Position numbers and translations under genes: made by a program
The notes under the pieces: generated by a model
Databases searched by the model: none
What the model saw: only the letters and a program-made list of their open reading frames with translations
What the model was told of the DNA's origin: nothing
DNA from: an uncultured Williamsia sp.
Lineage (GTDB): Bacteria > Actinomycetota > Actinomycetes > Mycobacteriales > Mycobacteriaceae
Length of the DNA stretch: 64,000 nt
Direction: 5' to 3'
Assembly: GCF_947494875.1 (NCBI RefSeq)
Contig: NZ_CANLWM010000010.1
Span: forward strand, 62,001-126,000
Part shown: positions 946 to 50,103 of the stretch, one piece after another
How positions within the stretch are numbered: the first letter of the stretch is position 1
Layout: the number at the start of each line of letters is the position of its first letter

Positions 946-968
946 AAACAATCGCACATGAACTGTCA
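946..968. promoter_or_regulatory. Operator site 1 (dyad AAACA-N13-TGTCA)
   Basis: Arms AAACA (946-950) and TGTCA (964-968), 13 bp apart, match the GAACA-N13-TGTTC element found before most units of the island. The AT-rich TTTAATTC (974-981) just downstream could be the -10 box for the gene starting at 1012. The arms are among the more diverged copies. Confidence 0.55.
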
Positions 969-1011
969 CATGGTTTAATTCGTGGCGAGCGCTGTCGAGG
1001 GAGGAGTTGTC

Positions 1012-2199
1012 ATGACCGACGTGGACTACGGCGACGTCCTCACCGCCGACGACCGTGAGTTCCGCACGGAGGTCCGAGATTTCCTGTCGCGGGCGCTCAC
1101 CGACGACGTCTCACTGCGCGGCGTGGACGAGTCGACACGGTTGGCGCGGATGCGACTGTGGCAGAGCCGACTCGCCGAGGCCGGTCTCGCCGCGATCTCC
1201 TGGCCGGTCGAGTTCGGCGGCCGTGCGGCCTCGCCCGTCCGTCAGTTGATCTTCTCGGCCGAGATGGCCGCCGCGGGGGCGCCCGAGCCGATCAACCGGA
1301 GCGCGATCAACCAGCTGGGGCCCACCATCATCCAGTGGGGCAGCGACGACCAGCGCACACACGTGCTGCCCCGCATCCTGAGCGCCGAGGACGTCTGGTG
1401 CCAGGGGTTCAGCGAACCCGGTGCGGGCAGCGATCTCGCGTCGTTGCGCACGCGCGCCCGCATCGAGGGCGACGAGCTGGTGATCTCCGGCCAGAAGGTG
1501 TGGACGTCGAAGGCGCACTACGCCGATCGCATCTACGTCCTGGCGCGCACCGATCCCGACGCCGACCGGCACAAGGGCATCAGCTACATCCTCGTCGACC
1601 TCGACTCCCCCGGCATCACCCGTCGGCCCATCCGTCAGATCACGGGCGGTGCGGAGTTCAGCGAGATGTTCTTCGACGACGTCCGTGTGCCGCTCGCGAA
1701 CGTGGTGGGGCCCCTGCACGGCGGGTGGACGGTGGCCAAGTCGACGCTCGGGTACGAGCGTGTCGGGCAGAGCCGCACGCACCGCATCGAGCGGCGCCTG
1801 GCCACCCTCACCCGGCTCCTCGAGGACGACACGATCCCGGCGGGATTCGACGACGACGCCGTCGCCGACCGGATGGTCGGGTTCGCGGCCCGGGTGGAGG
1901 CCCTCCGGCAGATCGTCGCCGAGGCGACGGCCGCCGGTGTCCGCGGCGACACCCCCGGTCCGGAGGCGTCGCTGTCCAAGCTGCTGACGTCCGAGGTGGA
2001 CCAGGCGATGTCGGACTTCGGTCTCGAGATCGCCGGACCGCGGGGAACGCTCGAACGCGGATCCCCGGGTGCGGTGAAGGGCGGCAACGTCGCCCGCAGC
2101 TATCTGCTGATGCGGGCCGCCACCTTCGGTGCCGGGACGTCGGAGATCCAGCGCAACGTCATCGCGGAGAAACTGTTGGGACTGCCCCGTGACCGGTGA
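1012..2199 (+). CDS. Acyl-CoA dehydrogenase, large (alpha-type) subunit
   Basis: A 395-residue flavoprotein of the acyl-CoA dehydrogenase family. The ATG at 1012 is chosen because GAGGAG (1001-1006) precedes it; a GTG at 982 lacks such a site. Visible landmarks are the substrate/FAD loop WCQGFSEPGAGSDLASL (about residues 129-145) and the C-terminal FGAGTSEIQR motif. The position of the MCAD-type catalytic Glu (YEGT) is Ala here. That fits the long subunit of heteromeric actinobacterial FadE pairs, which place their base elsewhere or share the active site. First gene of a six-gene unit (1012-7875). The next gene starts 11 bp before its stop. Confidence 0.85.
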   Translation: MTDVDYGDVLTADDREFRTEVRDFLSRALTDDVSLRGVDESTRLARMRLWQSRLAEAGLAAISWPVEFGGRAASPVRQLIFSAEMAAAGAPEPINRSAINQLGPTIIQWGSDDQRTHVLPRILSAEDVWCQGFSEPGAGSDLASLRTRARIEGDELVISGQKVWTSKAHYADRIYVLARTDPDADRHKGISYILVDLDSPGITRRPIRQITGGAEFSEMFFDDVRVPLANVVGPLHGGWTVAKSTLGYERVGQSRTHRIERRLATLTRLLEDDTIPAGFDDDAVADRMVGFAARVEALRQIVAEATAAGVRGDTPGPEASLSKLLTSEVDQAMSDFGLEIAGPRGTLERGSPGAVKGGNVARSYLLMRAATFGAGTSEIQRNVIAEKLLGLPRDR

Positions 2200-4309
2200 C
2201 CACGTCACGGCGTTCCTGTCCGGGATCAGGGTGGTGGAGGTCGGCGGCGGTGTCGTGGGGTCCGCCGCCGCCTCCCTCCTGGCCGGACTCGGCGCCGACG
2301 TCGCGACGACCGGGCCCACCGGTGGCCGGGTCGGACCGGTCCTGCGGGGGAGGTCGAGATCGGTCCCGGCGATCGACGCGGTCCTCGACCGGCGCAAACG
2401 CTTCGTCACCACGCAGGGGGCACTCTCGCTCGCCCGCGACGCGGACATCGTCGTGGTCGACGGTGTCGACCCGACCGAGATCCGCAGGCAGGTCGGCGAC
2501 GGACCCGTGGTCGTCTCCATCACGCCGTTCGGTCTCGACGGCCCGCGCGCCGGCGACGCCGGAGGGGAGCTCGTGGCGCAGGCGGCCGGAGGGCTCCTGT
2601 CGACCATCGAAGACGGTGCGGGGACACCGGTCCCCGCGCCCGGACACGTCGCGCAGCGCACCGCCGGAGCCCAGGCCGCGCTCGCGGCCCTGCACGGTCT
2701 CGATCGTCGGGCCGCCGGCGGACATGCTGTCTCCGTGGACCTCTCGGTGCAGGAGGCCGTCGTGGCGACGGCGTTCCTGCCCGAGTGCGCCCACCGCATC
2801 TTCGCCTGCCCGGGGCGGGCCGGCAGTGGTCGCTACCTCGCGCCGTCCGGGCTGTTCCGGGCCGCCGACGGTCTCGTCCGCATCACCGCGATCGAGAACC
2901 ACCAGTGGAGGGGGCTCGTCGCCGCGCTGGGGGATCCGGACTGGGCGCACGGACTCGACGAACGCCAGTCGCGGATCGACCACGCCGATCTCATCAACGA
3001 CCGGGTGACGGCATGGGCGGGCGACCGGCCCAAGTCCGACTGCGCACGGGTCCTGCAGGCCCATGGTGTGCCGTCGACCGCGGTCAACCTCCCCGGCGAA
3101 CTGGTGTCGTCGGAGCAGTTCCGGCATCGCGGCGCGGTGATCGACACCGAACTCGAGGGCGCACCTGCTGTCGTGATCGGTGAACCCTGGGTCGTCCATG
3201 CCGGCGGGTCGGCCCCCGCACGCCGGTCCGGACGTCTGGCGGACATCAGGATCGCCGAGCTCACGCACGTGCTCGCAGGACCGATCGTCGGCACGCTGCT
3301 CGGCGCGATGGGCGCCACGAGCGTCCGTGTCGAGGACCCCGACCGCCTCGACATCTACCGCCGCACCGGCCCGTTCGCCCGGGGGATCGCCGGGACCGAG
3401 CGGGGTGCCTACTTCGCCGTCGCGAACCACTCGAAGCGCAGCGTGCAGATCGACTCCGAGCATGCCGTGGCCGAGGTCGCGGCACTGATCGACCAGAGCG
3501 ACGTCGTCATCGAGAACGTCGGGTCGTCGCGACTCACCCGCCTCGGGGTCGACCCGGACGCACTCGCCGCGGCCGGCACGGTCACGCTCCGGGTGTCGGG
3601 ATTCGGCACGGACGGGCCGATGGCAGGCAATCGCGTCTACGCCAACAACGTCCAGGCCTACGGCGGTCTCGCCGGCTCGACCCTCGCTTCCGACGGCAGC
3701 CCCGCGCGCCTGGGCACCGTCATCGCCGACCCGTTGTCGTCGGTGATGGGGGCACTCGTCGTCGCGGCGTGGGCGCTCGGTCCCGCGCGCACCACCGGGG
3801 CGGTGATCGACCTCTCGATGGCCGAGGTGGTGGCCTCGCTGGTGGGGGAGTACGTCGCAGCGGGATCCTCGACCCACCCGACAGGAACCGACCCCGACGT
3901 GCTGCGGGGTGTCTACCGGTGTCGTGACGACAGGTTCGCAGCGGTCGAGCTGCTGGACCTCGACGAGCGGCGCCGGTGCGCGGAGCTGCTCGGCGATCCC
4001 GCGGACGACCTGTCCGCGACACTCGCGCGGGCGGCGGAGGGTGAGGACGCGCAGGTGTTCGCACGGCGCCTCGCCGACGCCGGGGTCCGCGCAGCGGCAG
4101 TCGTCGCCGCGGACGACCTCCTCGCCGACAAACATCTGGCGGCGCGCGGGTTCTTCCCGGGGTACGACCACCCCGACCCCGACATCACCGACGCGCGGCT
4201 GGTCGGCCTGCCCTGGCGGTTCGTGGGCGAACCCGCGATCCCGCTGGGACCGCCACCCACCCTGGGTGAGGCGAACGCACTGTACGAGAGGACGGTTCGT
4301 GTCCGTTGA
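2189..4309 (+). CDS. Tandem (two-domain) CaiB/BaiF family III CoA-transferase
   Basis: A 706-residue protein made of two CaiB/BaiF domains, roughly residues 8-335 and 348-700, whereas usual members are about 400 residues. The start is GTG 2189, inside the preceding ACAD gene. Family members move CoA between carboxylates or epimerise 2-methylacyl-CoA. The catalytic Asp of formyl-CoA transferase lies in a V-x-V-x-M-x-D motif. By eye it is Glu189 in domain 1 (VDLSVQEAV) and Glu546 in domain 2 (IDLSMAEVV), so activity is uncertain. Domain 1 looks shortened: the strand that normally carries the ENF motif is weak. The fusion may mimic the interlocked dimer of the family. Confidence 0.85.
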   Translation: MTGDHVTAFLSGIRVVEVGGGVVGSAAASLLAGLGADVATTGPTGGRVGPVLRGRSRSVPAIDAVLDRRKRFVTTQGALSLARDADIVVVDGVDPTEIRRQVGDGPVVVSITPFGLDGPRAGDAGGELVAQAAGGLLSTIEDGAGTPVPAPGHVAQRTAGAQAALAALHGLDRRAAGGHAVSVDLSVQEAVVATAFLPECAHRIFACPGRAGSGRYLAPSGLFRAADGLVRITAIENHQWRGLVAALGDPDWAHGLDERQSRIDHADLINDRVTAWAGDRPKSDCARVLQAHGVPSTAVNLPGELVSSEQFRHRGAVIDTELEGAPAVVIGEPWVVHAGGSAPARRSGRLADIRIAELTHVLAGPIVGTLLGAMGATSVRVEDPDRLDIYRRTGPFARGIAGTERGAYFAVANHSKRSVQIDSEHAVAEVAALIDQSDVVIENVGSSRLTRLGVDPDALAAAGTVTLRVSGFGTDGPMAGNRVYANNVQAYGGLAGSTLASDGSPARLGTVIADPLSSVMGALVVAAWALGPARTTGAVIDLSMAEVVASLVGEYVAAGSSTHPTGTDPDVLRGVYRCRDDRFAAVELLDLDERRRCAELLGDPADDLSATLARAAEGEDAQVFARRLADAGVRAAAVVAADDLLADKHLAARGFFPGYDHPDPDITDARLVGLPWRFVGEPAIPLGPPPTLGEANALYERTVRVR

Positions 4310-4541
4310 GCGCGAGGCCACCGTGGTGGCCTCCACACTGATCCCGTCGACGTCGCCGGTGACCGGCGAGAAGGGGTACAGCGTCGCATGGGTCGACACC
4401 GACGCCGGGCGTGAACAGGTCCTGGTCCGCGGAGAGCGCCCGAGCGCCGGTACCCGAGGGCGTGTCGTCGTCGAGACGCGCGACGACGGACCGCCCGAGT
4501 TCGCGCGGGTCGAGTGGTTCGTCGCCGGGGGTGTCGCATGA
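4299..4541 (+). CDS. Small OB-fold-like protein, probable DUF35-type partner lacking the zinc ribbon
   Basis: An 80-residue protein starting at GTG 4299 with GAGAGGACGG upstream. It overlaps the CoA-transferase stop and is itself overlapped by the thiolase start (ATGA). It contains no cysteine. Residues 5-75 read as alternating strands (VVASTLIP, GYSVAWVDT, EQVLVRG, GRVVVETR, FARVEWF), compatible with a single OB barrel like the C-terminal half of DUF35. Its place directly before an Ltp-like gene suggests it does the DUF35 job for that gene. Homology by sequence alone is weak, so the assignment rests mainly on context and length. Confidence 0.5.
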   Translation: MSVEREATVVASTLIPSTSPVTGEKGYSVAWVDTDAGREQVLVRGERPSAGTRGRVVVETRDDGPPEFARVEWFVAGGVA

Positions 4542-5656
4542 CGCTCGCGCACATCGTCGGTGTCGGCGTCGGTGCGTTCGGGGCGCATGGAGAGACCCCC
4601 GTGGCCGATCTCGCCGTCGCGGCGGCGGAGTCGGCGCTCGCGGACGCGGGACTCGGCTACGACGCCGTCGGCGAGGTGTTCGCGTCCTCGATGCTGTCCC
4701 CACCGCAGACCGCCATCAAGGTCGCGCATCGACTGGGACGCACGGGAATCCCCGTGACCGCCGTCGAGAGTGCCTCTGCGGGCGGCATGGTCGCGCTCCG
4801 GCACGCGGTGTGGGCGGTGGCCTCCGGACGGTGTGAGACGGCGCTGGCGATCGGCTACGAGAAGACCACAGCGTTGTCCCCGGGGGGCATCGTCCCTGCC
4901 GTGACCGGGTTCTGGGACCGCTTCCCCCCGCAGACGCACTACGCGATCGAGGCCGACCACTGGCTGCAGGAGGTCGGAGCCGGTCCCGAGACGATCGCCG
5001 CGGTCGCCGCGAAGTCCTACAACCAGGCGCGCCTGAACCCGCTGGCCGCGCGGCGGCAGGAGAACGAGGTGACCGTGGAGGACGTGTTGGGTTCCCGTCT
5101 CGTCGCCGACCCTCTGACGAAGATGATGTGTCACGCCTCGGTCGACGGGGCGGCGGCCGTCGTGGTCACCGCCGCCGCGACGTCCCGATCGGTGTCCGTC
5201 CGGTCCGTCGAGCAGACGAGCCAGCCCCTGGACCCGACCTGGCCGACGATCGGACCGGTCGTCGGTCCGCCGTCGCAGATCGCGACCACGGCCGATCGTG
5301 CCTATCGCGCCGCCGGTGTCGGTCCCGATCACATCGGCGTGGTGTCCATCCACGACATGTGCGCCAGCGAGGAGGTCACCGCCTTGGTCGCCATGGGTCT
5401 CCTGCGGACCGGCGACGCCGCGGAGACCATCGCCGCCGGCGGTCTGGCGTCCGGCGGATCACTGCCCACCAACACCGACGGCGGCTGCCTCGCCCGGGGA
5501 CACCCGATCGGTGCGACCGGTCTGGCCCAGGCCGCCGAGATCGTGCTGCACCTGCGTGGCGAGGCGGGCGAGCGGCAGGTGTCCGACCCGCGCCTCGGGC
5601 TGGTCGAGGCCGTCGGCGGTGGCGGATCCTGCGTGGTGGCGGTGCTCGGTGGCTGA
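4538..5656 (+). CDS. SCP-x/Ltp-type thiolase-fold protein, predicted retro-aldolase or thiolase
   Basis: A 372-residue thiolase-superfamily protein. The N-terminal nucleophile motif (CATG-type in SCP-x) reads SAGG, giving Ser80 where thiolases have Cys. The C-terminal loop RGHPIGATG, with its His, is intact, and a further CASEE segment lies near residue 275. Loss of the N-terminal Cys together with a small OB-fold partner gene resembles Ltp retro-aldolases, which cleave beta-hydroxyacyl-CoA in steroid side-chain degradation, rather than CoA-dependent thiolases. The intact GHPxGATG leaves a degenerate thiolase possible. Coupled (ATGA) to the preceding 80-residue protein; followed after 30 bp by an ACAD gene. 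Confidence 0.8.
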   Translation: MTLAHIVGVGVGAFGAHGETPVADLAVAAAESALADAGLGYDAVGEVFASSMLSPPQTAIKVAHRLGRTGIPVTAVESASAGGMVALRHAVWAVASGRCETALAIGYEKTTALSPGGIVPAVTGFWDRFPPQTHYAIEADHWLQEVGAGPETIAAVAAKSYNQARLNPLAARRQENEVTVEDVLGSRLVADPLTKMMCHASVDGAAAVVVTAAATSRSVSVRSVEQTSQPLDPTWPTIGPVVGPPSQIATTADRAYRAAGVGPDHIGVVSIHDMCASEEVTALVAMGLLRTGDAAETIAAGGLASGGSLPTNTDGGCLARGHPIGATGLAQAAEIVLHLRGEAGERQVSDPRLGLVEAVGGGGSCVVAVLGG

Positions 5657-5686
5657 CCGCGGCCTGCGACGAGAAGGGAAGGTCTC

Positions 5687-6736
5687 GTGGACATCTCGTT
5701 GACCGACGAACAGGTGCTGTTGCGCGACACGGCAGTACGACTCGCCGACGACCTGGCGACCGAGAACGCCGACTCCGTGCCGAGCGGCGACGACCTCGCC
5801 GCGGCGTGGCGCCGGCTCGTCGAACTGGGTCTGCCGACCTTTCGCAGCCCGGCGACGAGCGGGCTGGACAGCAGCGGCGTCGAGACCGTCGTCGTGATCG
5901 AGGAGCTGGCCCGGACACTGTCGGCCGTCCCCGCGGTCGGTCAGGGCGCGATCGCCGTCGACCTGCTCGACGCGGCCGGTGCCGCCGAGGAACTGGACGC
6001 CGTCGCCGAGGGTCGTCTGCGTGTCGCGCCGATGCTGACCGCAGATCTCGGCGACCTGGGGTACGGCTCGGAGGGATCTGTCGTCTTCGACGCCGCCGGC
6101 GCGGACGAGGTGATCTTCGCCGTCGCCGACGGTCGCGACCACCGCCTCTGCCGCGTCGCGGCGCCCGCCGTGCAGGACGCGGTCGGCGGTCTCGACCTCA
6201 CACGGCTGTACACGACGGTCACCTCCGATCTCGCGACGGTCGCGACGCCGGTGGGGTCCCCGATCGTCGCCGACCGATGGGAGCGTGCGGTCGCCCTCGC
6301 GCGCACCGTCGTCGCGGCCGACCTGGTCGGCGTGATGCAGGGCGCGCTCGACGCCGCGGTGCGGTACGCGGGGGAACGCACCCAGTTCGGCACCCGGATC
6401 GGCACGTTCCAGGCTGTGCAGCACATGCTCGCCGACGCACTCGTGCGGCTCGAGGGGGCACGCAGCTGTGTCTGGTACGCCGCGTGGGGCGTCGACCACC
6501 TCGAACCCGTGGAGGCGACGCTCGCGGCGATGACCGCGAAGGCCTACGCGAGCGAGGCGGCGCGGGAGGTGGTCGAGACGTCCGTGCAGGTGTTCGGGGG
6601 TATCGCCATCACGTGGGAACACCTGTCGCACCTCCGGTTGCGGCGCGTGCTCGTGGACCGCCGGGTTCTCGGCGACGAGACGGCGTTGTACCAACGGATC
6701 GCGGCGACACGGCTCGCGGACAGGGAGCTCGTCTGA
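5687..6736 (+). CDS. Acyl-CoA dehydrogenase, small (beta-type) subunit
   Basis: A 349-residue acyl-CoA dehydrogenase of the short FadE28-like type, starting at GTG 5687 with GAAGGGAAGG upstream. Landmarks are RTQFGTRIGTFQAVQH in the flavin/dimer region and VFGGIAITWEHLSHL near residues 300-313. The GG-x-x-x-TWEH signature marks the smaller subunit of heterotetrameric actinobacterial dehydrogenases such as FadE28-FadE29. The gene for a large-type subunit follows after only 2 bp, so the two most likely form one alpha2beta2 enzyme that desaturates a bulky acyl-CoA. Confidence 0.85.
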   Translation: MDISLTDEQVLLRDTAVRLADDLATENADSVPSGDDLAAAWRRLVELGLPTFRSPATSGLDSSGVETVVVIEELARTLSAVPAVGQGAIAVDLLDAAGAAEELDAVAEGRLRVAPMLTADLGDLGYGSEGSVVFDAAGADEVIFAVADGRDHRLCRVAAPAVQDAVGGLDLTRLYTTVTSDLATVATPVGSPIVADRWERAVALARTVVAADLVGVMQGALDAAVRYAGERTQFGTRIGTFQAVQHMLADALVRLEGARSCVWYAAWGVDHLEPVEATLAAMTAKAYASEAAREVVETSVQVFGGIAITWEHLSHLRLRRVLVDRRVLGDETALYQRIAATRLADRELV

Positions 6737-6738
6737 CC

Positions 6739-7875
6739 ATGGATTTCCACGACACCCCCGAGGAAGAGGCGTTCCGGTCCGAGCTGCGGGCCTGGCTCGG
6801 TGAGCACGGCGACGTCACCGTGCCCGACGACCCCGCCGCCCGAGCCGACGCACAGAACGCCTGGCACCAGGAGCTGCACCGAGCCGGCTACATCGGACTG
6901 TCGTTCCCGACCGAGATCGGGGGCAAGGGCCGCTCGCCCATCTACGACGCGATCCTCAACGAGGAACTGGGCCGGGCGGGCACCCCGCCGACCGAGGGCA
7001 TCGGACATCTGACGAACGCGCTGGCGCTCTTCGGGACCGAGGAGCAGCGTCGGGATCTGTTGCCGGGACTGATGTCCGGGCAGGTGCGGTGGTGCCAGGG
7101 GTTCTCCGAACCGGAGGCCGGGTCGGACCTCGCCGGGTTGCGTACCCGGGCCGTCGAGGACGAGGTCGACGGGGAATCCGTGTTCCGGGTGACCGGACGC
7201 AAGATCTGGACGAGCTTCGGAGCCGTCGCGGACTGGTGTTTCCTGCTCTGCCGCACCGACGCCGACGCCGGCAAGCACGCCGGGCTGTCGGTCCTCCTGG
7301 TGCCCATGTCCACCCCCGGTGTCCAGGTACGGCCCATCGTCAACGCCGCGCGGAACAAGGAGTTCAGCGAGGTCGTCTTCGACGACGCCGTGGTGCCTGT
7401 CGCGAACCTGCTCGGGGAGCGCGGGCAGGGGTGGGCGATCGCCAACCAGTTGCTCGCCTACGAGCGGGGACCCAGCGACATCAACTGGATCAGCCGACTC
7501 CTCGTGCAGCTGCGGCGACTCGAGAGCGACGTGCGCGAGGGCGTCATCCCCGACACCCCGACGACCCGAGCCCGACTCGGCCAGGTCTACGCCGAGCTGC
7601 GTGCCCTGCAGGTGACGGTGCAGCGGTCGTTGAGCAAACGGGTGCGCGGGGTCCTGCCCGGGCCGGAGGGGTCGGTCGACAAGCTCCTCATGGCACGGGC
7701 CGACCAGACGTTCGGCCACGCCGTGATGGATCTCAGCCCGGGGGAGACGCTGCGCACCGAGGGCCTGGACTGGGATCTGTACGTGTGGTCACGTGCCGCG
7801 ACGATCTACGGCGGGACCGCGCAGATCCAGCGCACCATCGTGGCCCAGCGCGTGCTGGGGTTGCCGCGACGCTGA
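6739..7875 (+). CDS. Acyl-CoA dehydrogenase, large (alpha-type) subunit
   Basis: A 378-residue protein starting at ATG 6739, three bases after the previous stop begins a new frame. It carries RWCQGFSEPEAGSDLAGLRT and the C-terminal IYGGTAQIQRTIVAQRVLG motif, where Gly replaces the MCAD catalytic Glu. An in-frame extension back to 5128 exists but runs through the real 5687 gene in another frame, so it is rejected. With the product of 5687-6736 it should form a heterotetrameric dehydrogenase. It is the last gene of the unit begun at 1012. Its stop overlaps a hairpin shared with the converging gene. Confidence 0.87.
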   Translation: MDFHDTPEEEAFRSELRAWLGEHGDVTVPDDPAARADAQNAWHQELHRAGYIGLSFPTEIGGKGRSPIYDAILNEELGRAGTPPTEGIGHLTNALALFGTEEQRRDLLPGLMSGQVRWCQGFSEPEAGSDLAGLRTRAVEDEVDGESVFRVTGRKIWTSFGAVADWCFLLCRTDADAGKHAGLSVLLVPMSTPGVQVRPIVNAARNKEFSEVVFDDAVVPVANLLGERGQGWAIANQLLAYERGPSDINWISRLLVQLRRLESDVREGVIPDTPTTRARLGQVYAELRALQVTVQRSLSKRVRGVLPGPEGSVDKLLMARADQTFGHAVMDLSPGETLRTEGLDWDLYVWSRAATIYGGTAQIQRTIVAQRVLGLPRR

Positions 7876-7903
7876 TCGGCCGCCCCCGTCGCGACCGATC
7901 AGC
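7871..7903. terminator. Bidirectional hairpin between converging genes
   Basis: GCTGATCGG (7871-7879) pairs perfectly with CCGATCAGC (7895-7903) across a 15-nt loop. The arms include the stop codons of both converging genes. No U-tract follows, as is common for actinobacterial terminators. Confidence 0.6.
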
Positions 7904-10225: not shown

Positions 10226-10226
10226 G

Positions 10227-42610: not shown

Positions 42611-42644
42611 GATTGCGTCCTCTCTCGAACTGAATGGTTGCGAT

Positions 42645-42675
42645 GAACAACGCTACATCACTTGTACTATTGTCA
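42645..42675. promoter_or_regulatory. Divergent promoter with two overlapping operator dyads (site 11)
   Basis: GAACA-N13-TGTAC (42645-42667) and CTACA-N13-TGTCA (42653-42675) are offset by 8 bp. TACTAT (42665-42670) is the rightward -10 candidate. The double site lies between the mycofactocin-type SDR and SMP-30 genes. Confidence 0.6.
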
Positions 42676-42727
42676 GAAGCTGTTCGCCGACGGCGATCCT
42701 GAGCCGCTGACATCGACGGGGGCGCAC

Positions 42728-43681
42728 ATGGAGTTCTCGACCGGTCAGCCCGTCCCGCACGTGGTCGCCGACGGTCTGGCCTTCCCCGAGAGCCCCATCG
42801 CGGCCGCGGACGGGTCGGTCCTGTGTTCGGAGATCGCGGCCGGGCGGATAACCCGTGTCCGTCGGGACGGCGCGCGGGAGACCGTGGCCGTCACGGGCGG
42901 TGGTCCCAACGGCGTCGCAGAACTGGCCGACGGTCGTATGGTCGTCTGTCAGAACGGCGGGTCCCGCTTCGGTGTCGGGCCGTGGCCCTACGACCTCCCC
43001 GGGTGCACCCGGCTCTTCCGCCCCGTCGGGGCACCGGACGAGCCCGTCACACCGCAGCTGCAGATCGTCGACCCCGACGGGTCGGTCCACACCCTGGCCA
43101 CCCACTTCACGGCGAAGACGGGTGAACGCCTGCCCCTGGTCCGGCCCAGCGACATCTGTGTCGACACCGTCGGGGGCTTCTACGTGACCGACGGCGGCAC
43201 CATGCACGGCCGTACGCGCGAGATGACGGGCCTGCTGTACGGGACGGTCGACGGCGACCTCCGGGAGATCGTGTTCCCGCTCGAGATGCCCAACGGGGTC
43301 GCACTCGCACCCGACGGCGCGACGCTCTACCTGGCCGAGACCCGCACCCGTCGCGTCTGGGCGTTCGGTCTCGAGGCGCCCGGGGTCGTCGGCAGAGCGC
43401 ACGGGTTCGCCACGGTCCCGGCCGGCGGGCCGCTCGGCGTCGGCGGCGCCGACGGGGTGTGCGTCGCCGACGACGGCCACGTTCTCGTCGCCACGCTGGG
43501 GACGGGTGGGGTGACGGTCTTCTCGCCCGACGGCCTGATCGTCGGGGCGATCGGCGCCGACGACCCGATGACCACCAACCTGACGCTGAGCCCGGACCAG
43601 GAGCGCCTCTACCTCACGCTGGCGTCGACGGGGCGACTCGTCGTCGTCGACGGGTGGCGGTCGATGGTCGGGATCGGGTGA
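42728..43681 (+). CDS. SMP-30/gluconolactonase-family hydrolase
   Basis: A 317-residue six-bladed beta-propeller of the SGL family from ATG 42728; an in-frame codon at 42662 lies in the -10 region and is rejected. Propeller signatures: VVADGLAFPESPIAAADG at the start with a metal-binding Glu, GPNGVAELADG, LPNGVALAPDGATLYLAET-type repeats (near residue 190) and GVCVADDGHVLVA. Family members hydrolyse lactones with a divalent metal; here a lactone made by a Baeyer-Villiger or P450 step is possible. Its stop overlaps the GTG of the adenylate cyclase gene (GTGA). Confidence 0.83.
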   Translation: MEFSTGQPVPHVVADGLAFPESPIAAADGSVLCSEIAAGRITRVRRDGARETVAVTGGGPNGVAELADGRMVVCQNGGSRFGVGPWPYDLPGCTRLFRPVGAPDEPVTPQLQIVDPDGSVHTLATHFTAKTGERLPLVRPSDICVDTVGGFYVTDGGTMHGRTREMTGLLYGTVDGDLREIVFPLEMPNGVALAPDGATLYLAETRTRRVWAFGLEAPGVVGRAHGFATVPAGGPLGVGGADGVCVADDGHVLVATLGTGGVTVFSPDGLIVGAIGADDPMTTNLTLSPDQERLYLTLASTGRLVVVDGWRSMVGIG

Positions 43682-45204
43682 CACCCAGCTCGGAGACCGG
43701 TCCGCGCAGACCGCGCGGGAGGCGCGTCGCGCCATTGGACGGGCCGGGTCTGCACTCGCGGCTCGTCGTGGCCGCACTCGTTCCCACCGTGGTCTGCGCC
43801 GTCGCCGTCGCCTTGGTGACCACACATCTCCTCCCGACCGCCGAGGCGTTCGACGACGCCGGCGTCCGGTCGACGAACACCGTGGCCGGGATCGTGTTCG
43901 CGGCCGTGGTCTTCCCCCTCGCCGGGCTGCTCGGGTTCCTCTGGACGACGCTGCCCGCCGGAGAACGCGACGAGCTCGCCGAACTCGAACTGCTGCAGCG
44001 GATCCCGTTCCGCATGACCGCGGTGCACGGCACCGTCTGGTTCGCGGCCGCCGCCGTCTTCGGCACGCTCAACCGTCCGACCCCGGTGCTGGGATCGTCT
44101 CTGGGCATCGGGCTCTCGCTCGGCGGCGTGCTCACCGGTGCGTTCTCGTACCTCCTCTGTGCGCGGGTGTTGCGGCCGGTCGTGGCCGCGGGCTTCGCCC
44201 GCCATCCGCCGCTACGACGGCGTGGTCCCGGGCTGCGGCTGCGGGCGATCCTCTCGTGGCTGGTCGGTACCGGAGTGCCGTTGGTCATGCTCGTCGTCGC
44301 GGCCGCGTACGCGTCGACGACCGAGGCCGGGCGGACGCAGGCGCTGGTCCTCGTCCTCGTCCTGGGGCTGGGGACGGCCGTGAGCGGTGTCGTCTTCGCC
44401 GCGCTGGCGGGGGCCGCGACCGCGGAGCCCATCGACGACATGCGCGCCAAGATGCGGCGCGTCGAGGGTGGTGACCTCGAGGTCGTGTCACCGGCATTCG
44501 ACGCGTCCGAGATCGGACTGCTGCAGGCGGGTTTCACCCGGATGGTCGCCGGTCTGGCCGAGCGCGAACGTCTCCGCGACCTGTTCGGTCGGCACGTGGG
44601 TCATCACGTCGCGCGGCTCGCGCTCCAAGACGAGGTGGGTCCCGGTCCCGCGGTCGGGGAGCGGGCGGTCCGTCGCGAGGCCGCGGTGGTGTTCGTCGAC
44701 CTGATCGGGTCGACCCGTATGGCCGCCACCGTCGACCCCGACGACTTCCTCGCGGCGATCAACGAGTTCTCCGCCGCGGTCGTCGAGGTCGTCGAGCGCA
44801 ACGACGGCTGGGTGAACAAGTTCATCGGCGACGCCGTCCTGGCGGTGTTCGGCGCGCCGACGCAGACTCCGGGATGGGCGGACGACGCGCTCCGTGCCTC
44901 CCGCGAACTACACGCCCTGCTGAACGCCGGCGCGGCACCACGGGTGGGTATCGGGGTGTCCGCGGGAACCGTCCTCGCCGGCAACGTGGGCGAGGAGCGG
45001 CGCTACGAGTTCACCGTCATCGGCGACCCGGTGAACGAGGCCGCGCGCCTCAGCGAGTCGGCGAAGAGACGGAGCGGGGTGCTGGCATCGGGATCGGCTC
45101 TGCAGCGGGCCGACGACGAGGAGGCCGCCCGCTGGCAGATCACCGGGTCGGAGGTGCTGCGCGGACGTCTGGACCCCACGGACCTCGCGGTGCCGCTCGT
45201 GTGA
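43678..45204 (+). CDS. Membrane-bound class III adenylate cyclase with HAMP domain
   Basis: A 508-residue protein: basic N-terminus, six hydrophobic segments (about residues 27-250), a HAMP linker (about 245-295, AEPIDDMRAKMRRVEGGDLEVV) and a class III cyclase domain (about 335-500). Metal-binding Asp are in VFVDLIGSTRMA and FIGDAVLAVFG; VIGDPVNEAARL is the later substrate-binding segment. The layout is that of mycobacterial Rv1318c-Rv1320c and Rv3645. It is translationally coupled to the SMP-30 gene, which ties cAMP signalling to this pathway. A catabolite or lipid signal sensed at the membrane is a possible role. Confidence 0.87.
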   Translation: MTPSSETGPRRPRGRRVAPLDGPGLHSRLVVAALVPTVVCAVAVALVTTHLLPTAEAFDDAGVRSTNTVAGIVFAAVVFPLAGLLGFLWTTLPAGERDELAELELLQRIPFRMTAVHGTVWFAAAAVFGTLNRPTPVLGSSLGIGLSLGGVLTGAFSYLLCARVLRPVVAAGFARHPPLRRRGPGLRLRAILSWLVGTGVPLVMLVVAAAYASTTEAGRTQALVLVLVLGLGTAVSGVVFAALAGAATAEPIDDMRAKMRRVEGGDLEVVSPAFDASEIGLLQAGFTRMVAGLAERERLRDLFGRHVGHHVARLALQDEVGPGPAVGERAVRREAAVVFVDLIGSTRMAATVDPDDFLAAINEFSAAVVEVVERNDGWVNKFIGDAVLAVFGAPTQTPGWADDALRASRELHALLNAGAAPRVGIGVSAGTVLAGNVGEERRYEFTVIGDPVNEAARLSESAKRRSGVLASGSALQRADDEEAARWQITGSEVLRGRLDPTDLAVPLV

Positions 45205-45207
45205 GGG

Positions 45208-46026
45208 TCATCGGCCGGTGAAGCGTGGCTCCCGGCGGTCGAGGAATGCGGCGACGCCCTCGGCGACGTCGTCGGTGCCGGCGACCTGTTCGACGACCAC
45301 CGACTCGGCGAAGAACGCCGCCGACCGATCGGTGTCGGGCGCGGCGTTCACCAGTGCCTTCGCCGCGGCGATGGCCCGGGTGGGACCCGTCGCGAGTTCC
45401 GACGCCCATCCTGCGACGAACGGGTGCAGTTCCTCGGGCTCGACCACGGCGTTCACCAGCCCGATCCGATGGGCGTGCTCGGCGTCGAGGGGACGACCGA
45501 AGAAGAGCAGTTCCTTCGCCACGTTCATCGGCAGCTTGCGGGCGAGGAGATAGGCGGCGCCGCCGTCCGGTGCGAGTCCGCGCTTGACGAAGATCTCGAT
45601 GATGCGCGCCGTCGACGCGGCGACGACGAGGTCGCAGGCCAGCACCATGCTCGCCCCGACACCCGCGGCGGTGCCGTTGAGTGCACAGACGACCGGCTTC
45701 TCGCAGTCGAGGATCGCCGACACCACGGCTTGCGATCCCTCCCGCAGGATGCGGGCCGCGTCGCCGGGAGCCCGTGTCGGATCGGGTGCCATCTCGGGGT
45801 CGGACAGGTCGGGTCCGGTGCAGAAGTGCCGGTCGCCGGCGCCGGTGAGGACCACGGCTCGCGTCGTCGGATCGCCTGTGGCAGTGCGTAATGCGTCGAC
45901 GAGGCCGCGTTGCATCCGCCGCGTCACGGAGTTCCCGCGCGACGGCCGGTCGAGGGTCACCCAGAGGACGCCGTCGGCCGTGGTGACGCCGAGACCGTCG
46001 ACGGGGGCGTCGGCGAGAGGTGGCAT
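45208..46026 (-). CDS. Crotonase-fold (enoyl-CoA isomerase-like) protein
   Basis: A 272-residue crotonase starting at ATG 46026, after GGGAAGGA. Landmarks: VTLDRPSRGNSVTR, CTGPDLSDPE in the oxyanion region and LNGTAAGVGASMVLACDLVV. The first hydratase Glu is Ser. The second region ends in GLAPDGGAAYLL, the A-P-D-G-G of PaaG-like isomerases. A single-gene unit that converges with the cyclase gene (3 bp between stops) and is divergent from the SDR gene at 46134. Confidence 0.83.
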   Translation of the reverse strand: MPPLADAPVDGLGVTTADGVLWVTLDRPSRGNSVTRRMQRGLVDALRTATGDPTTRAVVLTGAGDRHFCTGPDLSDPEMAPDPTRAPGDAARILREGSQAVVSAILDCEKPVVCALNGTAAGVGASMVLACDLVVAASTARIIEIFVKRGLAPDGGAAYLLARKLPMNVAKELLFFGRPLDAEHAHRIGLVNAVVEPEELHPFVAGWASELATGPTRAIAAAKALVNAAPDTDRSAAFFAESVVVEQVAGTDDVAEGVAAFLDRREPRFTGR

Positions 46027-46069
46027 GGGGGTCCTTCCCGGTACGGCGGAGGTGCGCTGTCGGACGATG

Positions 46070-46092
46070 ATACATTTCGGATACAAGTGTTC
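46070..46092. promoter_or_regulatory. Operator site 12 (ATACA-N13-TGTTC) in divergent promoter
   Basis: ATACA (46070-46074) and TGTTC (46088-46092). Read leftward, TATCAT (46072-46067) is a -10 candidate for the crotonase; the site also faces the SDR at 46134. Confidence 0.6.
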
Positions 46093-46133
46093 CGCCGCGT
46101 CGGCGGACGTCGTCCCTCGGAACGGAGTGCAGC

Positions 46134-46931
46134 GTGTCGCGTCTGGAGAACCGGTCGGCCCTGGTGACCGGTGGAGGGCAGGGCCTCGGCCGTGCCGTGT
46201 CACGACGTCTCGCCCAGGAGGGTGCCCACGTCACCATCGTCGACCTGAACGAGGAGAAGGGGCGCGAGTGCGTCGGCCTCATCACCGATGAGGGTGGTTC
46301 CGCGGGCTTCGTGCGGGCGAACGTCGCCAAGCGCGACGACATCGCCGCCGCCGTCGCGGAGGCGACCGTCGACGGCAAGCTCGACGTACTGGTCAACGCC
46401 GCACAGTATTTCGCGATGCCGAAGGCCTTGGAGCTCGTCACCGACAAGGACTGGGAACTCTCGGAGGCCACCGGCCCCAAGGCGACCTTCCGGTTCATGC
46501 AGCTGGCCCATCCCGCACTCGTCGCATCGGGTGGCGCCTCGGTCGTCAACTTCGTGTCGGGATCGGCGCTCGCCGGCATCGGCTACACCGGGCCGTACTC
46601 GGCCGCGAAGGGTGCTGTGCACGCGCTGACGAAGGTCGCGGCGAAGGAGTGGGCCCGTCACGGGATCCGCGTCAACGCGATCTGTCCGTTCGCCCTCACC
46701 GACGTGCAGCGCGACATGATCGGTACCGAATGGGACAACTACACCCGGACCGCCGAGGGCTCACCCTTCGGCCGCGGCGCCGACCCCGACACGGAGATCG
46801 CCCCGGCGGTGGCGTTCCTCGCGAGCGCCGACTCGGGCTTCGTCACCGGGACCGTGCTCTACGTCGACGGGGGGATGACCGAGTTGTCGACGGTCGACTA
46901 CTCGGCGTCGCCCGGCGTCTTCGAGGGCTGA
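46134..46931 (+). CDS. Short-chain dehydrogenase/reductase
   Basis: A 265-residue classical SDR from GTG 46134, with TCGGAACGGAG upstream. Cofactor loop TGGGQGLGRAVS, VDLNEEKG suggesting NAD preference, NAAQYF in place of the usual NNAG, Ser in VSGSALAGIG and YSAAK as the catalytic pair. The C-terminal VTGTVLYVDGGMTEL is standard. Role: oxidation of a hydroxyl group of a pathway intermediate. Its last 34 bp overlap the 3' end of the glyoxalase-fold gene on the other strand. Confidence 0.85.
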   Translation: MSRLENRSALVTGGGQGLGRAVSRRLAQEGAHVTIVDLNEEKGRECVGLITDEGGSAGFVRANVAKRDDIAAAVAEATVDGKLDVLVNAAQYFAMPKALELVTDKDWELSEATGPKATFRFMQLAHPALVASGGASVVNFVSGSALAGIGYTGPYSAAKGAVHALTKVAAKEWARHGIRVNAICPFALTDVQRDMIGTEWDNYTRTAEGSPFGRGADPDTEIAPAVAFLASADSGFVTGTVLYVDGGMTELSTVDYSASPGVFEG

Positions 46932-47368
46932 GAGGGCACCCGCTCGATCAGTTCGATGCGGTTGTCGTCCGGGTCGAGCAGCATCATCCCGCGGTTGCCG
47001 TGGCGGAACGTCACGGTGGCCTCGGTGAGGTGGCGACCGCCGTGCGCGACGATCGCGTCCGCCATCGCCTGTGCGTCGTCCACGCGGAACGACAGATGCG
47101 TGAACCCCGGACGGGTCATCGGGCGAACCGGCTCGGCGGGCTCGGGCGGCGGGGTGAGATATCCCAGGAGTTCGATCCGCACCCCGTCCCGCTCCAGGTA
47201 GATCAGTTCGACCTCCACGTCGGGCACGTCGAGGAGTTGCGCGGTCTGCGCGTCGGCGGCCGTCAGGTGCCCGACGACGGCGAATCCCACCCCGTCGCAC
47301 CAGAAGCGGAGCGACCGGTCGAGATCGGTGACGCAGAGCCCGATGTGGGTGAGACGGGGGTCGGCCAC
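46898..47368 (-). CDS. VOC (glyoxalase/dioxygenase) superfamily protein
   Basis: A 156-residue protein with two beta-alpha-beta-beta-beta modules. Likely metal ligands: His8 (THIGLCV), Glu in IELLGYL, His in THLSFRV and Glu in NRIELIE. Size and motifs fit methylmalonyl-CoA epimerase, glyoxalase I or a small epimerase/lyase. In a branched-acyl-CoA pathway an epimerase is attractive but unproven. GTG 47368 is 13 bp after the ALDH stop, so the two are co-transcribed. Confidence 0.82.
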   Translation of the reverse strand: MADPRLTHIGLCVTDLDRSLRFWCDGVGFAVVGHLTAADAQTAQLLDVPDVEVELIYLERDGVRIELLGYLTPPPEPAEPVRPMTRPGFTHLSFRVDDAQAMADAIVAHGGRHLTEATVTFRHGNRGMMLLDPDDNRIELIERVPSQPSKTPGDAE

Positions 47369-47381
47369 GGGGTCGTCGTCC

Positions 47382-48872
47382 TCAGCCGTGGAGGAACGTC
47401 GTCTTGGTGTCGAGGTACTCGAGGATGCCCTCGCGCCCGTTCTCCGAGCCCAGCCCGGACTGCTTCACCCCGCCGAAGGGCGCATGGGGCTGCAGGGTCC
47501 AGGTGTTCACCCCGACGTTGCCGGCGCGCAGGGACTTGCTGACCCGCAGGGCGCGTCCCACGTCCCGCGTGTACACCGCGGCGGCCAACCCGTAGAGCGA
47601 GTCGTTCGCCAGCGCGATCGCCTCCGCCTCGTCGTCGAAGGGTTGGACGGTCAGCACCGGTCCGAACACCTCCTCCCGCACGACCTCCATGGAGCCGTCG
47701 ACGTCGGCGAGGATGGTCGGTTGCACGAAGTTGCCGGCCGACGGTCCGTCCGTGACACGGCCTCCACCGGCCACCACGGTCGCGCCGGACGCCACTGCCC
47801 CGTCGATGTGGGCCAGGACGCGGTCCATGTGCGGCCGGCTGATCATCGGCGCCGAGGTCACGGCCGGGTCGAACGGGCTGCCGAACGACGCCATCGCCGC
47901 GAAGCCGGACAGGGAGTCGACCACCTCGTCGTACGCGCCGCGCTGCACGAGGATCCGGGACTGACAGACACACACCTGCCCCGAGAGTCCGAGGAACGCG
48001 TTCCCGGCGGCGATCCCGACCGCCATGCCGAGGTCGGCGTCGTCGAACACCACCGCGGGGCTCTTGCCGCCGAGTTCCAACGACACCCGTCCGATCCGCC
48101 TGCCCACGGAGGACGCGATGGCGCCACCGACTGCCCGGCTGCCGGTGAACGAGACCTTGTCGACGCGAGGGTCCTCGACCAGGGCCGATCCGACGTCCCC
48201 ACCGCCGGTGACCATGTTGAACACGCCGGGCGGCAGGTCGGCCTCGGCGATGAGCTCGGCGATGCGCAGGCTGGTGAGCGGGGCGAGCTCCGACGGCTTC
48301 ACCACGACGGTGCACCCGGCCGCGAGGGCGGGTGCGACCTTCTGGGCGAGCAGGCTCATCGGCGCGTTCCACGGCGTGATCAGTCCGACCACCCCGACCG
48401 GTTCGCGGGTCGTGTAGGTGAACGGCTGACCCTCCTCCCAGGATGGGTAGGTCTCACCGGTGATCTTGTCGGTCCACCCGGCGTAGACGTCGAAGAGGTC
48501 CGCCGGGTAGTGCGCACCCATCTGGTAGAAGCCGACGAAGGAACTGGGCGTCGAGTTGTCCAGCGAGAGCAGGGTGTTGAGGTTGTCCGCGTCGGCGTGC
48601 ATCAGGTCGGCGATCCGGCGGAGTGCGTGTGCCCGTTCACGAGCCGGCATCCCCGGCCACGGGCCCTCGTCGAACGCCCGCCGCGCCGCCGCGACGGCGT
48701 CGGCCACCGTCGCGGCGGTCGCCGTGGGCGCCTCGAAGACGGTCTCGGAGGTCGCGGGATGCAGGTGCGGCAGCGGGGTGTCGACGCCGTCGATCCATGT
48801 GCCGTCGACGAACATGGCCTGGCGGGGGAGTGTCGCGGCGGACAGGTCCGAGAGCACCGAGATGTCAGTCAC
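47382..48872 (-). CDS. NAD(P)-dependent aldehyde dehydrogenase
   Basis: A 496-residue ALDH-superfamily enzyme. The general-base Glu266 is in LELGGKSP and the catalytic Cys301 in GQVCVC; the Rossmann loop SFTGSRAVG and KPSELAP are also present. It would oxidise an aldehyde from P450 or SDR action to the acid that is then activated with CoA. Start GTG 48872 lies seven bases after TACTGT (48885-48880), so a leaderless mRNA is likely. First gene of a two-gene unit with the VOC gene. Confidence 0.92.
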   Translation of the reverse strand: MTDISVLSDLSAATLPRQAMFVDGTWIDGVDTPLPHLHPATSETVFEAPTATAATVADAVAAARRAFDEGPWPGMPARERAHALRRIADLMHADADNLNTLLSLDNSTPSSFVGFYQMGAHYPADLFDVYAGWTDKITGETYPSWEEGQPFTYTTREPVGVVGLITPWNAPMSLLAQKVAPALAAGCTVVVKPSELAPLTSLRIAELIAEADLPPGVFNMVTGGGDVGSALVEDPRVDKVSFTGSRAVGGAIASSVGRRIGRVSLELGGKSPAVVFDDADLGMAVGIAAGNAFLGLSGQVCVCQSRILVQRGAYDEVVDSLSGFAAMASFGSPFDPAVTSAPMISRPHMDRVLAHIDGAVASGATVVAGGGRVTDGPSAGNFVQPTILADVDGSMEVVREEVFGPVLTVQPFDDEAEAIALANDSLYGLAAAVYTRDVGRALRVSKSLRAGNVGVNTWTLQPHAPFGGVKQSGLGSENGREGILEYLDTKTTFLHG

Positions 48873-48877
48873 GGCCT

Positions 48878-48900
48878 AGACAGTAGTACGTGCGATGTCC
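48878..48900 (-). promoter_or_regulatory. Operator site 13 (AGACA-N13-TGTCC) with -10 for the ALDH unit
   Basis: Read leftward: GGACA, then a 15-bp left part ending in GTAC, then TACTGT (48885-48880). It lies in the 33-bp gap between the crotonase stop and the ALDH start. Confidence 0.65.
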
Positions 48901-48905
48901 GATCG

Positions 48906-49754
48906 TCACGCCTCCGGTGGGAGCCACGCCGGGCGCCGGGTCACCTCGACGAACGCGTCGCGGTCGTGGTCGCGGGGCCAGCGCGGTTCGCGCTTGTCGA
49001 GGAAGGCCCCGAAGGCCTCGATCTGCTCGGGTGTGCCGATGGATCCCCAGTAGCCCGAGACGTCGACCTGGGGGAGGGCGCGGGCCATCTCCCGCTTCAT
49101 GGCGGCGCGGGCGGCGGGGCCGGTCGCGCGGACCCGGTCGAGCAGTGCGTCGGTCTCGCGCATGAGGTCGGCGGCGGGCACCACCCTGCCCACGAGGCCG
49201 AGGCGTTCCGCCTCGGTGGCGTCGACCCACTCGTTGCCGTAGATCAGGTGGTTCGCGCGCAACGTCCCCAGCCGCTGGGGTAGCCGCGAGGCCAGGAACG
49301 CCTCGTAGACACCCCGTGTCAGGTCCGGGACCCGGAACCTGGCGGTGTCGGCCGCGATCACCAGGTCGGCGAAGAGGGTCATCACCAGTCCGCCGCCGAG
49401 TGCGACGCCGTCGACGCTGCACACCACGATCTTCGGGATCCGTTGCAGCGTCTCGAACGGCGTCCCGTCGTAGGCCTCGGTGAACGCGTCCCAGCGGCGG
49501 TCACCGTCGGGCCGTGCGTTCATGTCGCCACCGGCGCAGAAGTTGCCCTCCGAGCCGGTGATGACGAGGAAGTCGAGGTCCGGCTCGTCGGCGACGATCA
49601 TGGCGGCGCGTTTGATCCCGTGGTATCCGTCGGCGGTCACCGCGTTGCGCTTCTCGGGACGGTGGATGGTGACGGTCAGCCGATCGCCGGAGATGCGGGC
49701 GCGCAGTTCCGGGGTCCCGAGATCGACGTCGACCTCGTCGGGGAGTGGTGTCAT
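48906..49754 (-). CDS. Crotonase-fold (enoyl-CoA hydratase/isomerase family) protein
   Basis: A 282-residue crotonase from ATG 49754. Landmarks: VTIHRPEKRNAVTAD, FCAGGDMNARP in the oxyanion region and VDGVALGGGLVMTLFADLVI. The hydratase Glu positions read Val (GGGLV) and Asp (RVPDLTRG). The C-terminal region is rich in Arg and Asp, with a Trp-Pro-rich end (EPRWPRDHDRDAF). It follows the lipoyl carrier gene by 9 bp in a two-gene unit, which suggests that the two work in one step or consecutive steps. Confidence 0.84.
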   Translation of the reverse strand: MTPLPDEVDVDLGTPELRARISGDRLTVTIHRPEKRNAVTADGYHGIKRAAMIVADEPDLDFLVITGSEGNFCAGGDMNARPDGDRRWDAFTEAYDGTPFETLQRIPKIVVCSVDGVALGGGLVMTLFADLVIAADTARFRVPDLTRGVYEAFLASRLPQRLGTLRANHLIYGNEWVDATEAERLGLVGRVVPAADLMRETDALLDRVRATGPAARAAMKREMARALPQVDVSGYWGSIGTPEQIEAFGAFLDKREPRWPRDHDRDAFVEVTRRPAWLPPEA

Positions 49755-49763
49755 GGGTACTGA

Positions 49764-49991
49764 CTACTCGATCTCGGCGACCAGGGTGCCGATGTCATGG
49801 GTGGTGTCCACATCCACCTTCCAGTGCACGACGCCCGACGCCGGTGCCTCCACGTCCATCTCGACCTTGTCGGTCGCGATGGCGTAGAGCGGATCACCCT
49901 CGTCGACCGTCCCGCCCTCCTCGACGTAGAGGGTGATCACCTCGGCTTCCGTGATGGCGTCACCGGGCTTGGGCATTCGCGCTTCCGTCAC
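49764..49991 (-). CDS. Stand-alone lipoyl (biotinyl/lipoyl attachment) domain protein
   Basis: A 75-residue protein that is a single lipoyl domain: MPKPGDAITEAEVITLYV, the modification hairpin ATDKVEMDVEAP with the target Lys in D-K-V, then SGVVHWKV and GTLVAEIE. GTG 49991 is preceded by GGGAG. In 2-oxoacid dehydrogenase complexes this domain is normally the N-terminal part of E2; here no linker or acyltransferase domain follows. It may serve the fused E1 at 38101-40149. The D-K-V (not M-K-M) sequence favours lipoate over biotin. Confidence 0.85.
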   Translation of the reverse strand: MTEARMPKPGDAITEAEVITLYVEEGGTVDEGDPLYAIATDKVEMDVEAPASGVVHWKVDVDTTHDIGTLVAEIE

Positions 49992-50080
49992 GTCACTCCC
50001 TGCTGAGATCGGGACCCGACGGCCGCGACGGACCAGAGGCACGGCGGCGTGGCCCACGGCCGGTCGGGCGATGGTCAATA

Positions 50081-50103
50081 GAACATATCGTGATGTACTG
50101 TTC
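50081..50103. promoter_or_regulatory. Operator site 14 (GAACA-N13-TGTTC) in divergent promoter
   Basis: Perfect arms GAACA (50081-50085) and TGTTC (50099-50103), with TACTGT (50096-50101) as the rightward -10. It lies between the lipoyl-crotonase unit and the crotonase-ligase-ACAD unit. Last copy in the window. Confidence 0.7.

Follow-up and report, generated by a model that had tools for sequence, protein, structure and literature searches.

The window analysed here is a stretch of 64,000 nucleotides from an uncultured Williamsia sp. (G000:C10:62001-126000 of a 4.77-Mb genome in 17 contigs; C10, C4 and C3 are contig labels). It contains a catabolic island at positions 1..53723 which continues to the left to at least -8117, negative positions lying left of the window. 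Genes of this island are preceded by a repeated palindrome that includes the dyad GAACA-N13-TGTTC. The sites are very probably the operators of one TetR-family repressor, predicted to be encoded at -8739..-8134. The regulon is real and apparently undescribed; its kind, the TetR regulon of a catabolic island, is already known. Many transcription units of the one island are preceded by this operator, which is rare within genes and elsewhere. That the sites form one regulon, as an earlier note on this DNA had proposed, is supported by matrices which were trained in one lineage and find the sites of the other, by orthologous genes that carry the operator, and by the co-occurrence of the TetR gene with the island.

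All 14 sites listed by the earlier note are present. Their arms are perfect in four cases (11626, 28480, 38021 and 50081, exactly those it had named), and differ at one position in six, at two in two and at three in two. The window holds four exact dyads compared with 0.01 expected from dinucleotide shuffles, and 0 of 100 shuffles reach four. Genome-wide, six exact dyads (four in the window, one at 8.1 kb to its left and one on C4) compare with one match of a reversed-pattern control. When up to one mismatch is allowed, the counts are 46 and 7, and many of the 46 are scattered on other contigs. Gene calls were made with our own codon-usage script, so that start positions are approximate. By these calls, the six exact sites are all intergenic in the 120 kb examined, the non-coding share of C10:42001-142000 being about 6%. 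In the same 120 kb, exact arms were counted for spacers of 6-21 bp: a spacer of 13 occurs six times, one of 15 twice, and the others give none. As for the strong sites, the dyad is not equally common inside genes or across the genome.

A survey of exact dyads in 151 genomes gave 0-10 matches each and was uninformative; refined patterns were used instead. With up to three mismatches, the refined pattern has 14 matches at 13 places in the whole genome and its reversed control has none. Ten of the places lie on C10 (nine in the window and one at -8109), two on C4 and one on C3. The operator is not confined to the '53-kb island' originally described, and the regulon is wider than the window. The refined pattern was also applied to 40 further genomes from this family and order, all of which lack a match to the Rieske gene at E 1e-100. 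It has 14 matches there, in 12 genomes (at most two per genome, all with three mismatches), and the reversed control has 25; since the control outnumbers them, these matches represent background. Beyond 50103, where the earlier note had seen no further sites, the best matrix score is indeed at most 5.7 up to coordinate 80000.

Conservation and architecture of the operator

Related loci were collected in one scan with the hydratase encoded at 17039. The 46 loci comprise 38 from Mycobacterium (80-88% identity), three from Acidimicrobiia (68-71%) and five distant ones (29-49%), of which the Frankiaceae locus (49%) entered the matrix scans and L091-L094 were left out. Mycobacterium denotes here the genus in the broad sense (the genus of Mycolicibacterium sp. 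BiH015), the broad genus name being our reading. Duplicate sites were collapsed before the architecture counts and matrix training, which reduced the related-locus set from 151 to 129.

A matrix trained on 15 Mycobacterium sites alone and applied to 120 kb of own sequence yields 18 matches above the threshold of 8, whose overlap with genes never exceeds 9 of the 23 dyad bases. Column-permuted matrices (n=200) give a mean of 0.19 matches and a maximum of three, with a best score of 17.3 versus 31.2 for the real matrix. This Mycobacterium-only matrix recovers nine of the 14 listed sites together with the site at -8109, the C4 sites and the 31-mer 35306-35336, which had been missed, so that the original site list was not complete. 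The five listed sites that it does not recover have leave-one-out scores (the other own-genome sites being kept in training) of 17.5-24.8, as compared to 11.6 for the best match away from an operator, at -8905.

In the opposite direction, a matrix trained on the sites of this genome alone scores 141 sites above 20 across the 38 Mycobacterium loci. A single one of these is situated over 45 bp within a matched gene, although 76% of the sequence in these loci belongs to matched genes. Counting operators within 350 bp upstream of a matched gene, the element precedes the orthologs of the hydratase 17039 in 36 of 38 cases, of the P450 15696 in 36 of 37, of the E1 dehydrogenase 38101 in 28 of 30, of the amidohydrolase 35395 in 25 of 29 and of the short-chain dehydrogenase/reductase (SDR) 41753 in all 10; for the P450 29830 and the SDR 46134 the counts are 6/9 and 2/2. 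It is rarer before the orthologs of 40146 (8/32), c12579 (6/32), 5687 (2/15), c11804 (1/16) and -2550 (1/26). Those of the rarely preceded genes that lie in the window each follow closely behind another gene on the same strand, and c11804, on C4, has an operator directly upstream in this genome. Sites above 20 are present in each of the three Acidimicrobiia loci. The matrix scan of the Frankiaceae locus gave no site above 9.5. In the 15 loci inspected in detail, many relatives of window genes are found, often in another order. The comparison of orthologous gaps suggested by the earlier note hence shows the operator kept before orthologous genes in both Mycobacterium and Acidimicrobiia.

The element had been described as 23 bp long; the conserved element is about 31 bp. 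It is a palindrome of four half-sites, GNWCA-N3-GAACA-N5-TGTWC-N3-TGTTC, in which two arms of 13 bp (outer GNWCA, N3, inner GAACA) surround a 5-bp spacer. Its axis lies 4 bp from that of the original dyad, which joins an inner half-site to the outer half-site of the opposite arm and is overlapped by a mirror dyad 8 bp away. In 129 distinct related-locus sites, complementarity averages 0.51 about the new axis and 0.39 about the old one; the matrix that located these sites had been derived from the original dyad, which biases them against the new axis. The block conserved in divergent Mycobacterium promoters likewise measures about 31 bp, with a mean pairwise identity of 0.71 versus 0.37 in the flanks. 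This set comprises 26 promoters: L075 and L082, in which the hydratase gene lacks an operator upstream, were excluded, and the remaining 36 windows were thinned to those sharing less than 80% identity. Outside the block, two further single columns are conserved, at -30 and -26.

The candidate regulator

The earlier note had expected the regulator to be encoded just outside the window, to the left, and a TetR gene was found there at -8739..-8134 (C10:53261-53866; L016:11261-11866:+), 8.1-8.7 kb from the window and immediately to the left of the site at -8109, a perfect dyad. Its product of 201 aa contains a single TetR_N domain (PF00440, residues 20-66, 53.8 bits for a cutoff of 24). The predicted monomer is nearly all-helical (mean pLDDT 83.5) and resembles solved TetR proteins. 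Attempts to name the protein by NCBIfam failed: 19 families match at E <=0.001, every one with a score far below its cutoff. A 216-aa gene beside the second C4 site was also considered as a regulator and turned out to encode a SnoaL-like protein.

The linkage between the TetR gene, the island and the operator is observed in Mycobacterium as well. Among 248 genomes, searched for the TetR at E <=1e-45 and for the hydratase at E <=1e-110, 33 have both, two the TetR alone and 213 neither (Fisher p 5e-39, with kinship ignored; genomes and loci share kinship, and such values overstate independence). The two genes lie on one contig in 30 of the 33 genomes, at a median distance of 19.6 kb. A dyad with at most two mismatches follows the TetR stop codon within 40 bp at 23 of the 33 TetR-ortholog loci, in 13 cases exactly; a two-mismatch match 129 bp after the gene in L112 was left out of this count. 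Matrix matches above 14 occur at 31 of the 33 loci (none at L111 and L118), a partly circular figure because exact sites from these loci went into the matrix, and at two of 19 loci of distant TetR homologs (L030-L048). Many Mycobacterium TetR loci furthermore have weaker operator sites upstream of the TetR gene. The TetRs of the three Acidimicrobiia are 24-31% identical to the candidate and keep the segment SRGT(V/L)YRYF, and in two of the three an operator lies upstream of the TetR gene itself. An exact WSW-type dyad is present in 22 of 35 TetR-positive and 25 of 213 TetR-negative genomes, an association far from perfect.

Within the genus of the window the TetR has no match at E 1e-15 in seven genomes. 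The Rieske oxygenase of the island is without a match at E 1e-100 in 150 related genomes, these seven included. The island may have been gained by the window lineage or lost in others. Separately, a palindromic operator-like site (L048:2175-2205) lies beside a distant TetR homolog (39%) in another family of the order.

Several observations weigh against the assignment to this repressor or against the weaker sites. When up to two mismatches are tolerated, the window shows no enrichment of the dyad (16 versus 11.4 +/- 3.2, with 11 of 100 shuffles reaching 16); this count is ordinary, and weak sites therefore need other support. The sites at 946, 10674, 16918, 46070 and 48878 are missed by the Mycobacterium-only matrix and need training sites of this genome. 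The earlier note had asked for the same site in the regulator's own promoter; the perfect dyad lies just downstream of the gene, whereas the promoter has the weak site at -8905 (score 11.6) alone. Ten of the 33 TetR-ortholog loci have no dyad close after the TetR gene, L102 among them being cut by a contig end. The exact WSW-type dyad is missing in 13 of the 35 TetR-positive genomes and, as stated above, occurs in TetR-negative ones. Segments resembling SRGT-YRYF are common and are present in the TetR homologs of L030 and L031, where no operator was found. The predicted monomer fits known folds moderately (TM 0.42-0.65), and the same genome encodes a paralog of the candidate that is 38% identical to it (C3:241839-242393).

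Proposed mechanism and competing readings

Binding, repression, stoichiometry and inducer are what we infer from these observations. Judging by the operator length, two TetR dimers would bind each operator in the manner of QacR and CprB. Most operators are centred 20-110 bp upstream of a start codon, frequently in divergent gaps, and promoter occlusion is thus the simplest reading: bound operators would block RNA polymerase. The repressor might be released by a CoA thioester or another early intermediate of an imported lipid-like substrate, whereupon uptake (mce), oxygenase (P450s, Rieske) and beta-oxidation-like genes would be switched on together. An inducer of the acyl-CoA type is a guess from the predicted FadR-like fold and from the pathway.

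A chance or compositional artefact of AT-richer intergenic DNA would agree with the ordinary count of two-mismatch dyads. For the strong sites, chance is refuted by the cross-lineage prediction, the reversed-pattern control, the column-permuted matrices and the conservation before orthologs, and the probability left to this explanation is negligible. Real operators could also be bound by another regulator, namely a second TetR with an MftR-like C-terminal domain (-5196..-4561), a LysR at -10660 or the C3 paralog. The genes of the second TetR and the LysR flank the island, and the paralog resembles the candidate to the extent given above. Relatives of the second TetR and the LysR are absent at E 1e-15 from the 46 related loci and the TetR loci, save for the LysR's own copy in L029, while the candidate TetR has them; moreover, no operator scoring above 8 precedes either gene. 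The second TetR reaches 92.3 bits on the MftR model, below the cutoff of 224.9. Such a substitution of the regulator is accordingly rated as very unlikely.

Two further proposals are compatible with the same regulator and concern its mode of action. The TetR could be an activator, or activator and repressor in turn; the sequence is compatible with activation, and some gaps have two operators (37943/38013 and 16918/16974). The position of most operator centres at 20-110 bp before starts, where a promoter would be covered, speaks against it, and the TetR proteins investigated are mostly repressors (PMC3511530), which weakens the proposal further and leaves it a slim chance. A single dimer might instead occupy one 23-bp dyad, the conserved flank being unrelated promoter sequence. 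It is true that the ACA/TGT bases of the dyad are the most conserved positions and that some sites of this genome, for example 38013, have a poor outermost half-site. However, when 35 sites (17 own and 18 distinct exact dyads from related loci) are oriented by their centre only, C at -4 is kept in 33 and A at -3 in 27 on the left, whereas the mirror T and G on the right occur in five and nine. In addition, many related-locus sites yield two matrix matches on opposite strands 8 bp apart, and the conserved block of divergent promoters spans the four half-sites. A lone dimer appears improbable in the light of these data, if slightly less so than the two preceding alternatives. Against the proposed binding of two dimers, on the other hand, it counts that bridging half-sites 16 bp apart would be awkward given helix spacings of 31-38 Å (PMC4150764), unless contacts are made further inward.

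The 31-bp operator assigned here to the candidate TetR falls within the 22-32 bp range of dimer-of-dimers operators (QacR 28, CgmR 32, Ms6564 31 and CprB 22 bp, compared to 15-17 bp for single dimers; PMC4150764), and its two overlapping dyads, 8 bp apart, fit that class as well. The functions differ: QacR acts in drug efflux and Ms6564 in global control (PMC4150764). The system resembles KstR (Rv3574), a TetR over a large lipid/cholesterol-catabolic regulon with the 14-bp palindromic operator TnnAACnnGTTnnA (PMC1995591), in that here, too, a single TetR would govern many genes of lipid catabolism by way of a palindromic operator that is repeated. It differs from KstR itself: against the KstR model, the candidate reaches 24.5 bits for a cutoff of 280, and the motif occurs 0 times in the window. 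The KstR2 operator is AnCAAGnnCTTGnT, and this motif has 0 matches in the window at up to one mismatch. The dyad is thus distinct from the KstR and KstR2 boxes, as the earlier note had held. BkaR (Rv2506), a mycobacterial TetR with branched-chain keto-acid targets and the 16-bp core GTTANTN4ANTAAC (PMC3920632), is similar as a mycobacterial-type TetR with palindromic operators and targets in keto-acid metabolism; its core also has 0 matches in the window at up to one mismatch. Mce3R of M. tuberculosis is a TetR-type repressor of an mce operon, as the candidate is proposed to be, and ranks second among the solved proteins nearest by sequence. It is a 406-aa double TetR with a 25-bp asymmetric, non-palindromic site (PMC11667970), unlike the candidate with its 201 aa, one TetR_N domain and palindromic operator. 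By the tests made, the regulator is not KstR, KstR2, BkaR or Mce3R. The best fold match of the predicted monomer is the TetR-type FadR of Bacillus, solved in complex with stearoyl-CoA, which makes acyl-CoA a plausible ligand class; the two differ in sequence (17-21% identity, TM 0.52-0.65), and the FadR model gives 43.7 bits for a cutoff of 200. A 2015 survey of mycobacterial TetR motifs (PMC4482099) presents them as logos and lies outside this comparison. In the literature searched (open-licence text without supplements), we recognised no description of the operator or regulator.

Taken together, these results may describe the regulator of a large polycyclic- or branched-lipid pathway common to Mycobacterium, the genus of the window and Acidimicrobiia, in which two TetR dimers would lock each promoter via the four-half-site operator; the operator would stay with single genes at other loci and would have captured the mce uptake operon here. 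We consider the chances of this joint reading to be about even. A likely regulator, its operator and a defined gene set are now supplied for a large catabolic island, which opens the question of its substrate to experiment, as the inducer of a single small protein would indicate a pathway intermediate. The operator can furthermore be used to collect scattered pathway genes in other genomes, as for C4 and C3 here. Its retention between Mycobacterium and Acidimicrobiia, despite the low identity of the Acidimicrobiia TetRs to the candidate, also offers a useful case of regulator-operator co-conservation.

Operator sites and genes of the island

Each site had been placed in a promoter gap. All exact sites are intergenic, as noted above, while the site at 16918 overlaps the called start of a P450 gene; an in-frame ATG at 16892 as the start would place it upstream. 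At 31054 and 48878, the genes on either side run in the same direction and the gap that holds the site is short. In the following, coordinates refer to the 31-bp element and leave-one-out scores are given in brackets. All of the perfect dyads were also found by the Mycobacterium-only matrix. The operator at 11626..11656 (38.0) precedes an SDR-like gene at 11699 and the Rieske oxygenase gene at 12650, that at 28472..28502 (28.6) a CoA-transferase gene at 28563, and that at 50073..50103 (40.4) lies between the genes of a lipoyl protein (49764-49991, minus strand) and a hydratase-like protein (50138, plus strand). The fourth, at 38013..38043 (24.4), precedes the gene of the fused E1 dehydrogenase at 38101 on the plus strand. 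It shares the divergent gap between 37889(-) and 38101(+) with the operator at 37943..37973 (30.7) on the side of the minus-strand gene, which matches in both orientations 8 bp apart; the Mycobacterium-only matrix finds both.

The same matrix finds the operators at 16974..17004 (23.7), before the run that begins with the hydratase at 17039; at 31046..31076 (31.6), before the P450 gene 29830-31023 on the minus strand; at 33573..33603 (30.2), between CoA-transferase genes (-) and a P450 gene at 33697(+); at 35306..35336 (21.3), the added site, before the amidohydrolase gene at 35395(+); and at 42645..42675 (32.6), between the SDR gene 41753-42610(-) and an SMP-30-like gene at 42728(+). The sites which it misses include the weak operator at 946..976 (17.9), with three arm mismatches, before the acyl-CoA dehydrogenase gene at 1012, and that at 10674..10704 (19.9) between the divergent genes of a polyketide-cyclase-like protein (10652, minus strand) and an enoyl-CoA hydratase (10727, plus strand). 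The others are those at 16918..16948 (24.8), before the P450 gene running on the minus strand from 15696 to about 16892; at 46062..46092 (17.5), a weak site between a hydratase-like gene (45208-46026, minus strand) and the SDR gene at 46134(+); and at 48878..48908 (18.0), also weak with three arm mismatches, before the aldehyde dehydrogenase gene 47382-48872(-).

Family searches or matches to solved structures support the P450s, the Rieske oxygenase, acyl-CoA dehydrogenases, hydratases and family III CoA-transferases of the island, and likewise a ChsH2-like OB-fold protein, thiolases, acyl-CoA ligases, the fused E1, the lipoyl protein, MCE proteins and MlaE permeases; additional genes were assigned from their translations. 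What is generally known of such gene sets leads us to infer that the island takes up and degrades a polycyclic or branched lipid. The nearest solved relatives of the P450s are CYP130, YjiB (with PikC close behind) and CYP125MRCA, and these structures do not settle the choice of a substrate.

The target run at 17039..28446 (plus strand) comprises an enoyl-CoA hydratase, an acyl-CoA dehydrogenase-like gene, six MCE-type genes, one accessory gene and two MlaE permeases. The hydratase and the permeases have Pfam support. Two of the six MCE-type genes were scanned: 19073 scores 76 bits on the mce model, below its cutoff of 140.5, and 20380 matches MlaD and Mce4_CUP1; the other four and the dehydrogenase were named by their translations. 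From 19073 to 28446, the MCE-type genes and the accessory gene come first and the two permeases last, with no large gaps; a permeases-last order is unusual among mce gene sets. No mce match was found in the 15 related loci inspected. A second run, at 38101..41704 (plus strand), consists of the fused E1 dehydrogenase (Pfam) and two hydratase-like genes (from translations).

Outside the island, the two C4 operators (L017:10250-10280 and 11770-11800) precede SDR and SnoaL-like genes in a satellite cluster whose relatives in Mycobacterium lie beside the TetR gene (L082) or in the island. The isolated C3 operator (C3:287688-287715; L160:7688) precedes an aldehyde dehydrogenase gene, the product of which is 51-54% identical to the TetR-adjacent one in Mycobacterium versus 38% for the window's own. 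Because the C4 and C3 genes match TetR- or island-linked genes in Mycobacterium, the operator seems to mark pathway genes wherever they lie.

Inside the island, 43735-45204 encodes a protein with a class III adenylate/guanylate cyclase domain, relatives of which (47-50%) adjoin island genes in four of the 15 loci. Lastly, contrary to the earlier statement that the window encodes no regulator, an ECF sigma factor gene is present at 61164-61832 in the core part, followed by a gene for a trypsin-like/PDZ protease (61164-63892 together).

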